From positions 1 to 64,000 of the forward strand of contig JAKSKR010000008.1 of the NCBI GenBank assembly GCA_024401645.1: 64,000 bases of DNA, given 5' to 3'. This DNA comes from Paludibacteraceae bacterium. Lineage in GTDB: Bacteria; Bacteroidota; Bacteroidia; Bacteroidales; Paludibacteraceae. Under the pieces are notes generated by a model, which worked only from the letters and a program-made list of their open reading frames with translations, was not told where the DNA came from and did no database searches. The position numbers and the translations under genes are program-made. Shown here in pieces: positions 47,764-51,377 of the stretch (positions are counted from its first letter, which is position 1; each line of letters begins with the position of its first letter).

Positions 47764-47806
47764 AAAAGGGTTCACTTCGGAAAGATGAAGTGAACCCTTT
47801 TAGTTT
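47764..47806. terminator. Bidirectional terminator between PgpH-like and lipoprotein genes
   Basis: A 15-bp perfect stem AAAAGGGTTCACTTC (47764-47778)/GAAGTGAACCCTTTT (47787-47801). T-rich ends occur on both strands, so it can end both convergent transcripts. Confidence 0.85.
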
Positions 47807-47844: not shown

Positions 47845-49380
47845 TTACTTTACTGTTGATGCTCCTGAAATGCCATCGGCTGTGGTATCGATTGGCGAAC
47901 CATAGGTAGCTTTCAGTTCGGGAGAGTCGAGTGCCGATTGGAAGTCGGACGGATTGAAAACGACCGGTGTCTTCGAGAATTCTGGCACATTGTAACACTT
48001 TAGAAGGTTGATGTCGTGGTGCGGATCGGCATGAGGTAGCATTATAGCTTTTGACACCTTTCCATCGGGGTTTACATGTGCGAAGTATGGCCTTGAATAA
48101 TTACCATCGTATCTTCGCGAAGAAAACACGAACCATTTGCTATTACTAGTCCAATCGTGGTAACTGTCTGACTCACCCTTGCAATTAATTTCTTCAAGGT
48201 TACGAACCTCTTTCGTATTCAAGTCCATCATGTATAAATCGGCAGACTTGTTGGTTTGTGTAGAAGTTCCGTAATCGGCCTCAGTAAACAACAGGTAGCG
48301 ACCGTTAGGCGACACACGCGGGTAGGTAGCGCTACGCATCTTCGAAGCAGCATCGTACACCAATTCAGGCTTACCCCAAGATATGGAATCGGCATTGAAA
48401 GGTATGCGGAACAGGTTGTAACGAAGGTGCTTGATATTACCAACAACCGCCAAAGTAGAATCGGAAGAATTATAATAAAGGTATTTGCCGTCGGGAGCCC
48501 AATTCGGATTCGTTTCCTGACTATTCCTTGTCTTTAGCACGGCTGTTATCTCGTTCTTCTCAATGTTATAGAGTACCAAGTCGGAATAAAGGTCATAAGG
48601 TTCAATCTTGTTAATCTCGAACGTATTGAACGATTGCTTAATGACGTTAGACGAGAACGCGATGAATGGCAAAGTTGGGTGCCAAGCCGGATAGACCGTA
48701 CCTGCAAACATATCGCCAGCGCGGGTATTAATTTTCTGCACCTTGCCATTGTACGTCAACAAGAGTCCACCGTTAGGTCCACGGTAATAGAACATCTTGT
48801 TTTCGGGATGATTGCGCTGTGAGGTATGGCAGTTGACGCACTTCTGACCACGAATTGCAGGATTCTTATGACAACGGTGATTGTCTAAAATGACCTTTTC
48901 GGCATTATTCTCTAGGTCGTACTGATAGACACCAATTTCGCCGGTGCCCATGTAAGAAGGCTCAATAAGTCGATAGGTCAAGTAAGGGTCAATTGAATCG
49001 GCCGAAACCGTATTTGTAAACGGCTTGTAATGCAACCAATTTCCACCCTTCTTCACATAAAGGTCGTACTTCAACGTTTTGCCAACATTAGCAGCAAGCA
49101 TCGTCTTCCAAGCCTTTTCGGGAATGATGACGTCGTTTTTGCCCGATGCCGAAATGGTAAGGGCACTACCCTCTTCGGGCGTAATGGTCAACACGGCAGC
49201 GTCGGCAGTGTCTTTAACAAAAAAGTTAAGCGGTGCAATGTTAACCGGCACCACGCAATTGGTATAGTCGGGATATATGCACACATCACGGCCATTCTCG
49301 GTAAAAGAACCGGGAACACCCGATGAACAAGATGCCAGCAACGAGAATAAGCCAGCAACGGTATAGAGTTTTACCTTCAT
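47845..49380 (-). CDS. Lipoprotein with a CxxCH haem motif and TolB-like propeller repeats
   Basis: The 511-residue protein has a lipoprotein signal (KLYTVAGLFSLLASCSS, lipid Cys18). One canonical haem-binding motif CVNCH lies at 181-185, just after VILDNHRCHKNPAIRGQK. The second half holds WD40-like/PD40 propeller blades (for example AWHPTLPFIAFSSNV, NPNWAPDGKYLYYNSSDSTL, YPRVSPNGRYLLFTEADYG). An electron-transfer or ligand-sensing role is inference; a single c-type haem fused to a TolB-like propeller is notable. It starts 6 bases after the large membrane protein gene and is surely cotranscribed with it. Confidence 0.85.
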   Translation of the reverse strand: MKVKLYTVAGLFSLLASCSSGVPGSFTENGRDVCIYPDYTNCVVPVNIAPLNFFVKDTADAAVLTITPEEGSALTISASGKNDVIIPEKAWKTMLAANVGKTLKYDLYVKKGGNWLHYKPFTNTVSADSIDPYLTYRLIEPSYMGTGEIGVYQYDLENNAEKVILDNHRCHKNPAIRGQKCVNCHTSQRNHPENKMFYYRGPNGGLLLTYNGKVQKINTRAGDMFAGTVYPAWHPTLPFIAFSSNVIKQSFNTFEINKIEPYDLYSDLVLYNIEKNEITAVLKTRNSQETNPNWAPDGKYLYYNSSDSTLAVVGNIKHLRYNLFRIPFNADSISWGKPELVYDAASKMRSATYPRVSPNGRYLLFTEADYGTSTQTNKSADLYMMDLNTKEVRNLEEINCKGESDSYHDWTSNSKWFVFSSRRYDGNYSRPYFAHVNPDGKVSKAIMLPHADPHHDINLLKCYNVPEFSKTPVVFNPSDFQSALDSPELKATYGSPIDTTADGISGASTVK

Positions 49381-49386
49381 ATATCT

Positions 49387-51174
49387 TTATTTATTTGATT
49401 TCAGATTATTGGCATTCGGATAAGGATTACCGAACAAAAGGAAATAGAGGTACGAACCCTGATATTGTTTTAGCTGTTCGGCACCATTTTCGTGATCTTT
49501 TGCATAAAATTCAGCAGCCTTCACAAAACCTGCAACCCTTTCGGCCACATCCCTTTTAATTGGGAAATACTTTATCAGGTTAATCTTGGTGTTCATGGCA
49601 TAAAGCGCCACAATTTCCTGCATGCACATAGGCATCTTTTCTCGATACATACCAGCAACGGTCTGCAAGTCTGAAATGAAAGCGTTGGTGTTCTTACTAT
49701 AAAGGTGTAGCAACAAGCGACGCTCCATATTAACAGGATCGAGCTGACTGTAGGATGACATAACTTTAGGCAAATCGAAAATACCTATAGAGTTGACCAT
49801 TGGCAACTGGTGTCGGTAGACATTGCCCAGCACAGGGTATGCGTTAAAGAGCTCTTGCTGCTTGCCAACGTAAGGCTCAAAATCTTCTGCCCACTTCGAA
49901 TAGCCAACCGTCTGCTTTAACTGATTGATGTACTTTCTTGAAAGTTCAGCCTCGCCTTGAATGAGAGAAGTGAGCGTAAAGCGCTTCAAGTCTGACACCG
50001 TGCGCTTGGTGTTGGTCCACGACTCCATACCCCACAACAGACTGATGTTAGGCTGTGAAGAATAAAGCATCAAGTCGGGTTGGAAAATCAAGTCGGTAAT
50101 GTCGGTATAAGGCGAGTTAATGGTATCGTAACGCACAGGGAAATTGAACAAGTCGGTCGACAAACGGCCTTTTGCTTCCAAGGCAATGTAACGGTAGGCT
50201 GCAATTGGTCTGGTAGGACGTTTTACGGTTTCGGCCACCTTCAGCGCACCATCGAAATCCATGTCTTCAACACAATGCTTCATTTCAAGCTCGGTGCGGT
50301 AGTTGGCATCACGGAAAGAGAAGTAGAACGTAAGGCCACACAACGCCAACACACAAGCCGGCGTTACAAAAGTTTTCTGCATCAGTTCCAAATCCCTGAA
50401 AATAGGCACTGCAATGGCCATAACAACCGACACCAAGGTCAACATTGCCAACATAAAGAGAGGCTTGAAGTAAGGCACTGGCAATGGGCCAAGCAATGTA
50501 AACAAGTAGTCTTCCTGAACCATAGAGGTGGCAAGCATAGGCAAAAGCAGCAATAAGGCAACCCCTCCCAACAAGAAATGCAAGGCCGTCTTCCTATCGC
50601 TTGCAAAGAGAGAGGCACTTGCTACAAGCAGCGAGAATGGAGAGAAAATGCCGATAGCGAAATAAAGGACAATGGCCAGTACCGTGCTAACGGCCAACCC
50701 CTTTGTGCCTAGCTTTGCATAAAGCAAGCGGAAAGCATTTGCCAAACCTAGCGAGAGAAGGAGTCCAACCTCTAGACTTACGGCAAACGATGTGTCGAAA
50801 TTATCGTAAATGGCATAGCCTGCCGACGTTTGCGCCAACAGCACCAGCAGCGAAGGCACGAAGACCGAGAGCAAGCGGCAATAGCAGTCGCAAGTCGTTA
50901 GGCGTGCCACTAATCTTTCAATACCTACCAGACCAGCCGACATGAAGCAAGCGCCCAAAAGCGGATAGTGAAGGAACTGATTCAAGAATTTCGACACATA
51001 GACCAGAACGCCAGCCGACTGCGCCAGTGTTTCGTTGGCAAAAACACTATTTGCCAAGAACAGGTTTTGTGCCTGCAATGCATATAGGTACTCGGCATTA
51101 AACACGCCTAGGAACAAGAACGCGAAGATAAAGAGAACCGCTTCGCAAATCCACCTTGTCTGTTTGAATGACAT
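49387..51174 (-). CDS. Large membrane protein (DUF6057-like), partner of the haem lipoprotein
   Basis: The 595-residue protein has about ten membrane helices in its first 290 residues, then a soluble, mostly helical C-terminal half of about 300 residues (repeated helix pairs such as DGALKVAETV, ELSRKYINQLKQTV, VAGFVKAAEFYAKDH) that resembles tetratricopeptide-like packing. This organisation fits the Bacteroidota family I recall as DUF6057; the assignment is from memory and uncertain. No catalytic motif is visible. It is the first gene of a two-gene unit with the CxxCH lipoprotein, with its own -7 element upstream. Confidence 0.7.
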   Translation of the reverse strand: MSFKQTRWICEAVLFIFAFLFLGVFNAEYLYALQAQNLFLANSVFANETLAQSAGVLVYVSKFLNQFLHYPLLGACFMSAGLVGIERLVARLTTCDCYCRLLSVFVPSLLVLLAQTSAGYAIYDNFDTSFAVSLEVGLLLSLGLANAFRLLYAKLGTKGLAVSTVLAIVLYFAIGIFSPFSLLVASASLFASDRKTALHFLLGGVALLLLLPMLATSMVQEDYLFTLLGPLPVPYFKPLFMLAMLTLVSVVMAIAVPIFRDLELMQKTFVTPACVLALCGLTFYFSFRDANYRTELEMKHCVEDMDFDGALKVAETVKRPTRPIAAYRYIALEAKGRLSTDLFNFPVRYDTINSPYTDITDLIFQPDLMLYSSQPNISLLWGMESWTNTKRTVSDLKRFTLTSLIQGEAELSRKYINQLKQTVGYSKWAEDFEPYVGKQQELFNAYPVLGNVYRHQLPMVNSIGIFDLPKVMSSYSQLDPVNMERRLLLHLYSKNTNAFISDLQTVAGMYREKMPMCMQEIVALYAMNTKINLIKYFPIKRDVAERVAGFVKAAEFYAKDHENGAEQLKQYQGSYLYFLLFGNPYPNANNLKSNK

Positions 51175-51254: not shown

Positions 51255-51291
51255 AAAAAAAATCCAAACAAGTAAGAACCCGTTTGGATTT
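51255..51291 (-). terminator. Terminator of tRNA-Arg
   Basis: On the minus strand AAATCCAAAC (from 51291) pairs with GTTTGGATTT (to 51260), a perfect 10-bp stem, followed by a T run. Confidence 0.85.
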
Positions 51292-51303
51292 CGAAAATCT
51301 AAG

Positions 51304-51377
51304 TGATTGAGAAGGGATTCGAACCCTTGACCCACAGCTTAGAAGGCTGTTGCTCTATCCAGCTGAGCTACTCAACC
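51304..51377 (-). tRNA. tRNA-Arg (anticodon TCT)
   Basis: A 74-base cloverleaf reads on the minus strand. The acceptor GGTTGAG pairs with CTCAATC, with discriminator A. The D arm is GCTCAGCTGGATAGAGC, the anticodon stem CAGCC/GGCTG-type encloses TCT, and the T arm has GGGTTCGAATCCC. The CCA end is not encoded. Confidence 0.96.

Follow-up and report, generated by a model that had tools for sequence, protein, structure and literature searches.

What could a lipoprotein with a haem-binding motif and a propeller fold be doing when its gene sits directly behind that of a large membrane protein? This question is raised by a gene pair in the window, by which we mean the whole 64,000-nucleotide stretch analyzed here, from contig JAKSKR010000008.1 of a Paludibacteraceae bacterium whose genome is 71% complete. 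One gene encodes a PD40/TolB-like lipoprotein with a CxxCH motif and the other a membrane protein of the Pfam family DUF6057. Based on our findings, the pair is real and conserved as a unit, and the open-access literature that we searched describes no function for it. We propose that it is a small envelope redox module, a reading to which we give slightly less than an even chance as a whole, and whose parts we grade separately below.

The case begins with conservation. Homologues were taken from 198 genomes of Bacteroidales and from 80 loci in public records, the latter not drawn at random but selected for scoring best against the window protein; by their titles, all but two of these loci are from Bacteroidales, the other two being a “Roseburia” and a “Clostridium” assembly. 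Leaving out a frame-broken copy (L075), identical copies and lipoprotein matches below 450 bits gave 119 non-identical lipoprotein homologues; a locus whose region holds neither gene (L095) was also excluded. Both cysteines of the motif (C181 and C184) are kept in 118/119 homologues and the histidine (H185) in all of them. Of the 119 lipoprotein genes, 118 have a DUF6057 gene on their own strand at a distance of up to 400 bases; it is upstream in 113, the median gap is 4 bases, and a lipoprotein lies near 117 of the 120 DUF6057 genes. The latter count treats as paired the second DUF6057 genes of 3 loci (L163, L168 and L174), which come after the lipoprotein and are followed by a gene of another cluster with no second lipoprotein. 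An order-wide draw of 42 DUF6057 loci above the cut-off gave a similar picture, the lipoprotein being present in 36, absent in 3, a fragment in 1 and at a contig edge in 2. DUF6057 was found in 21/198 sampled genomes of Bacteroidales. In a draw across the phylum, 192/296 genomes had some match to the lipoprotein, nearly all weak and confined to the propeller repeats; among the matches listed, only two genomes besides that of the window reached full strength, and both stretches, when read, had CxxCH and an adjoining DUF6057 match. The original prediction, made from the sequence alone, had described a lipoprotein with a single CVNCH motif and TolB-like blades lying 6 bases behind a large membrane protein. 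This description is borne out by a PD40 Pfam match (residues 286-306), an AlphaFold2 model, Foldseek and VIA, and by the arrangement of the genes on the minus strand with the lipoprotein second; the checks it had proposed, of the motif and of the pair in relatives, were passed as well, with few exceptions. We consider it fairly probable that the two proteins form a complex, an estimate taken down a little because of DUF6057 genes that stand alone.

The lipoprotein is probably a c-type cytochrome, to judge from its motif and the genomes that carry it. The conserved CxxCH lies in an exported protein, and the genome holds haem-c attachment machinery. Because CxxCH is kept and ResB is present in all 19 genomes with a clear lipoprotein match (above 150 bits), covalent attachment of haem c is likely. 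Among the other genomes ResB was found in 116/179 (Fisher p = 5e-4, kinship uncorrected), and with good assemblies only the counts are 16/16 versus 101/150 (p = 0.003). Two further genomes with edge fragments of the lipoprotein (G131 and G154) also have ResB; a 61% complete genome with only DUF6057 at a contig end (G011) has none, and no ResB match was listed for a genome with a fragment of the distant type (G157, 83% complete). In the window genome, a fused ResB-CcsA protein (L187 5783-7828) stands in one cluster (L187 5783-13898) with a CxxCH lipoprotein, a di-haem oxidoreductase and an imelysin-like protein. Since ResB-CcsA clusters with the latter two, the window genome probably makes other cytochromes c. 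NrfA was rejected as a partner: Strong matches occur in just 8/19 of the clear lipoprotein genomes, with a sub-cut-off match in one more (G112) and none in the 71% complete window genome. For the same reason, NrfA does not explain the ResB machinery.

The second possible cofactor is suggested by the C-terminus. The lipoprotein ends in DTTADGISGASTVK, in which DGISGAS is an exact match to the flavinylation motif of ApbE, D-x-x-[S/T]-G-A-[S/T]; the original prediction had missed it. Passages of PMC12052999 describe these seven residues as enough for tagging, which was best at the chain end. Within the last 50 residues the motif occurs in 13/119 homologues as 18 copies (plus 1 just outside), whereas shuffled tails held a mean of 0.02 and a maximum of 1 in 2000 rounds. 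Two or three copies per protein are found in L102, L136, L150, L166 and L171. Anywhere in the protein, the motif is present in 18/1552 distinct called genes of the loci; all 13 genes with a tail motif belong to this lipoprotein family, and the other five (two of this family) carry it internally. On a quick tree, in which long branches were flagged, the trait falls into four groups and requires at least 5 changes. Taking this together, we regard flavinylation of the tail as an even call. A scan of the window genome DNA gave 19 matches, and the reversed pattern gave 17; the number of matches there is thus background and was rejected as a signal. The window lipoprotein had no match to the FMN_bind domain (PF04205) at E up to 0.1. 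In the open-access literature searched, we found no account of a flavin tag on a cytochrome-like propeller or of this gene pair.

Four in-frame motif sites in exported proteins of this genome (window, L229, L236 and L238) were chosen by eye. L229 (G000:C31:14706-14725, minus) is a small, apparently exported protein with DAVDGQSGAT just past a signal-like start, closely resembling DAVDGVSGAT of the genome's FMN_bind protein, and it is possibly a second free flavin tag. L238 (G000:C58:6240-6259) is a formylglycine-enzyme-like (PF03781) lipoprotein in which the linker behind the lipobox contains DSITGAT, perhaps by chance. L236/L239 (G000:C56:94019-94249) is the only above-cut-off FMN_bind match found in the window genome at 71% completeness, and no NqrC- or RnfG-like match was seen in it at that completeness.

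Where would such a protein reside? Its AlphaFold2 model (pLDDT 89.9, from an alignment of 64 sequences) has TolB as best match both in Foldseek (E 4e-15) and in VIA, places CxxCH in a strand, and leaves the C-terminal tail disordered (pLDDT 33-40). The lipid-bearing cysteine, Cys18, is kept in 118/119 homologues. In Bacteroidetes, an acidic run after the lipid cysteine is a surface-export signal. The window lipoprotein has no such run, and at least 2 acids at +2 to +6 are found in only 7/116 lipobox-bearing homologues. The window lipoprotein is therefore more likely periplasmic than surface-exposed. Distant relatives share this propeller and carry C-x-N-C-H-S in the corresponding position; 4 of the 6 examined extend about 200-390 residues further, with tetratricopeptide (TPR) repeats in the two scanned (L099 and L100). 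Since these parts share one chain there and are encoded by adjoining genes here, this suggests that the haem propeller and the helical-repeat domain act together.

The membrane protein matches PF19529 over residues 10-581 with 218.1 bits (gathering score 29.8, E 3.5e-64). Its model has, by our reading, nine membrane helices, where about ten had been predicted, a long first outer loop and the helical-repeat tail that had also been predicted; VIA matches to the tail are largely TPR-type proteins, over residues about 307-445. Because the number of membrane helices is odd, the tail would lie in the periplasm. The original prediction had also thought membrane-to-surface electron transfer or redox sensing conceivable. 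A redox or haem role has been strengthened, by the conserved pair and motif and by the flavinylation motif, but a wire through the membrane has not: No position in the DUF6057 membrane helices has His in over half of the 120 sequences. In a 39-row alignment, the columns in which His reaches half of the rows stand directly behind the last membrane helix and in the tail, none of them within the membrane helices. A haem-b membrane wire of the PepSY, MsrQ or DUF4405 kind was rejected on this ground, and transfer to the surface is not supported by a lipoprotein without an acidic surface signal.

The long first outer loop, formed by helices 27-35, 43-50 and 55-69, is a layout that we take to be as in GT-C proteins. 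Over the membrane part, VIA gave Z values of 8.7 for OST/STT3 (251 residues), 7.7 for PglB, 7.7 for Pmt4, 7.2 for ArnT and 6.8 for AftA, all weak, as Z below about 13 for helical models may mean only a common helical arrangement. Foldseek of the model against the PDB gave nothing with E below 0.001. At the first membrane helix and first outer loop, where we assume that a GT-C catalytic acid would be expected, Asp or Glu is present in 76/120 sequences, Glu in the window protein. A GT-C-like fold of DUF6057 is thus weakly suggested as a lead. In L126 (4035-5675), L144, L159, L166, L170 and L175, a large mid-membrane stretch of DUF6057 is missing, with the first helices and the tail kept.

The surroundings of the pair in relatives add a metabolic context. 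SusC/SusD, glycoside hydrolases or esterases lie within four genes at 23/37 loci versus 2/20 windows taken from these genomes as controls (p = 2e-4), a comparison in which the search profiles, being built from the pairs' own neighbours, favour pairs over controls; SusC/SusD alone gave 13/37 versus 1/20 (p = 0.012). In the set of 80 loci, polysaccharide-utilisation neighbours were found at 33/80 and SusC/SusD alone at 10/80. Sliding control windows gave 13/128 for all families and 4/128 for SusC/SusD. These locus counts leave out the distant relatives L099 and L100 and the window, which has no matches. The pair is often, not always, beside polysaccharide-utilisation genes, and the window copy is not; the earlier claim that no partner enzyme lies nearby stands for the window but less so for relatives, which often have glycoside hydrolases and SusC/SusD next to the pair. 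Of additional note, genes of one cluster follow the pair or the second DUF6057 gene in L126, L158, L163, L168, L172, L173, L174 and L179, and the member scanned is a DPP-IV-like S9 peptidase.

We suggest a plausible mechanism for the pair. DUF6057 would be a platform in the inner membrane whose helical-repeat tail reaches into the periplasm; the lipoprotein would dock on this tail, its propeller facing the periplasm. Haem c would be added covalently at CVNCH by CcsBA (System II). In the window genome and in several other branches of the family, one to three ApbE motifs on the flexible tail could then bring covalent flavin mononucleotide (FMN) near the haem, and electrons could travel by way of the tethered FMN between the haem and flavoproteins of the periplasm. 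Attachment of both cofactors, docking, the periplasmic side and electron transfer are all steps that we infer. More generally, and more tentatively than for the pair itself, Bacteroidales may bolt FMN onto haem-c propeller lipoproteins by domain-free ApbE tags, in 1 to 3 copies on disordered tails, so that haem and flavin form tethered relays with DUF6057 as their platform; this would have come about in several separate branches and may extend to the exported proteins L229 and L238. If true, the scheme would offer a first way into the function of DUF6057; it would mean that a cytochrome can be flavin-tagged in nature without a dedicated FMN domain, and it would tie envelope electron transfer to gut glycan metabolism. 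The two-gene unit is found in many gut Bacteroidales, and in the window genome the flavin tag would make the lipoprotein a two-cofactor (haem and flavin) electron carrier of a kind not found described in the open-access literature searched.

Several observations weigh against this scheme. The motif is absent from 106/119 homologues, and because of this flavin is not the core function of the lipoprotein family. The nearest relative, L101, has DGQTSAS in its place, and L172 has EGTTGAS. Moreover, Ser is the final residue of 14 of the 18 tail copies, and passages of PMC12052999 give Thr as the residue that ApbE favours there. ApbE itself is encoded in the window genome (294.8 bits, on another contig than the pair) and in 11/11 genomes searched (ten with the motif and that of L101), but since the baseline is 180/198 genomes of Bacteroidales, we dropped its presence as support for flavinylation. 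As for the haem, the candidate sixth ligands His198 (110/119 homologues) and His377 (114/119) are replaced in the window protein by Tyr and Asn, respectively, although this protein does have His234 and His408; CxxCH adjoins a part of the model with low confidence; and a genome that keeps two intact copies (G178) also has a paralogue without both CxxCH cysteines (L086 7156-8667), which reads as a natural haem-less version of the lipoprotein. The pairing has its exceptions in one lipoprotein without a DUF6057 neighbour (L087) and three DUF6057 genes without an adjoining lipoprotein (L096-L098). Near the pair in the window we recognised neither a donor nor an acceptor of electrons, and all the evidence on the cofactors comes from sequence.

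The lack of a recognised redox partner in the window, together with the single haem motif and the absence of a conserved membrane His from DUF6057, would also fit a haem that is structural or sensory and not a relay, with the lipoprotein stabilising or gating DUF6057. A precedent is the single-haem cytochrome TfcP, which acts in this way on PilY1 according to passages of PMC8833165. Such a role would leave the recurrent flavinylation motifs of the tail unexplained, and we think it rather unlikely. If instead the position of CxxCH in a strand is given weight, the motif could form a disulfide or a zinc site without haem. In hydrazine synthase alpha, a CxxCH histidine binds zinc, as passages of PMC12607021 and PMC12758564 report, but haem is attached there too; with C-x-x-C-H kept in nearly all homologues and in the distant relatives, and ResB in all 19 clear genomes, this seems to us very improbable.

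DUF6057 could also be a GT-C-type glycosyltransferase with a TPR tail, the lipoprotein being a substrate-side glycan helper at polysaccharide-utilisation loci and haem or flavin being secondary. The neighbours of the pair in relatives agree with this, as do 13 of the 14 listed VIA matches covering the membrane part of known membrane proteins, which we class as GT-C enzymes, and a sub-threshold match to EmbC (E 0.65). The Z values are nonetheless in the range of a common helical arrangement, the Foldseek search of the PDB was empty at its threshold, the acid is at the expected place in under two thirds of the sequences, and several members have shortened membrane parts; no glycosyltransferase family was among the matches listed for 39 DUF6057 members (25 of 32 Pfam families). 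We therefore judge this unlikely, and keep the redox module as our preferred reading.

The features on which these arguments rest are collected in the table. The pair may be transcribed as one unit, given the 6-base gap, the terminator-like site after tRNA-Arg and a hairpin spotted by eye past the lipoprotein gene (about 47764-47801); the scan for terminator-like sites gave 5 versus 4.4 in shuffles. In the window, the pair has ordinary neighbours, namely a 7TM-HD protein, an Omp85 protein and tRNA-Arg.

Table. Features of the DUF6057-lipoprotein gene pair and its upstream flank, in window coordinates.
Feature	Position	Strand	Remarks
DUF6057 membrane protein gene	49387..51174	-	595 aa; first of the pair; Pfam PF19529; AlphaFold2 pLDDT 90.5
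Membrane part of DUF6057 protein	50320..51171	-	Residues 2-285; nine predicted membrane helices; from model secondary structure, hydropathy and VIA (weak)
Helical-repeat (TPR-like) tail of DUF6057 protein	49426..50307	-	About residues 290-583; VIA matches of TPR type
PD40/TolB-like propeller lipoprotein gene with CxxCH	47845..49380	-	511 aa; second of the pair
Predicted signal peptide and lipobox of lipoprotein	49327..49380	-	Residues 1-18, lipid Cys18; from sequence
Propeller region of lipoprotein	47965..49002	-	About residues 127-472; from the stretches that VIA and Foldseek align to TolB and to hydrazine synthase alpha
CVNCH, putative haem-c motif of lipoprotein	48826..48840	-	Residues 181-185; conserved in homologues
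DGISGAS in disordered C-terminal tail of lipoprotein	47857..47877	-	Residues 502-508; exact match to ApbE flavinylation motif
Terminator-like hairpin between tRNA-Arg and DUF6057 gene	51259..51292	-	Consensus match only
tRNA-Arg upstream of DUF6057 gene	51303-51377		

How does the pair compare with known systems? Over its full length, the membrane protein belongs to DUF6057 (PF19529), a family without described function that is not named in the open-access literature searched. The lipoprotein shares with TolB a propeller of the TolB type (VIA Z 26.9 over 281 residues), but identity is 15%, the TolB equivalog model gives 31.7 bits against a cut-off of 343.15, and the window protein is lipid-anchored and has CxxCH and a DUF6057 partner. 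The best fold match other than TolB is hydrazine synthase alpha (5c2v; Z 24.1 over 292 residues), a propeller protein with covalent haem. Its active-site CxxCH (His587) lies beyond the aligned range 52-551, whereas the window CxxCH is within the aligned lipoprotein stretch 127-499. With the motif at a different place, a hydrazine-synthase-like haem site was rejected in spite of the fold match, and no HZS Pfam domain matched the lipoprotein with E values up to 0.1 allowed.

With ApbE-flavinylated proteins (FMN_bind proteins, and FMN_red proteins with extensions), the lipoprotein shares the exact motif, here on a disordered C-terminal extension. For some FMN_red proteins, motif-bearing C-terminal extensions are proposed in passages of PMC11334425, and their genes lie with apbE; the window apbE is instead on another contig, and the lipoprotein, as noted, is outside FMN_bind. 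The PD40-TPR proteins with CGNCH (L099, and L100 8267-11119) differ in having TPR on the same chain and Asp aligned to His198, and no DUF6057 was found in the loci read; L211 and L212 have a similar layout, the TPR scan having covered L099 and L100. All the same, they have the same propeller as the window lipoprotein, with CxNCHS at the same place.

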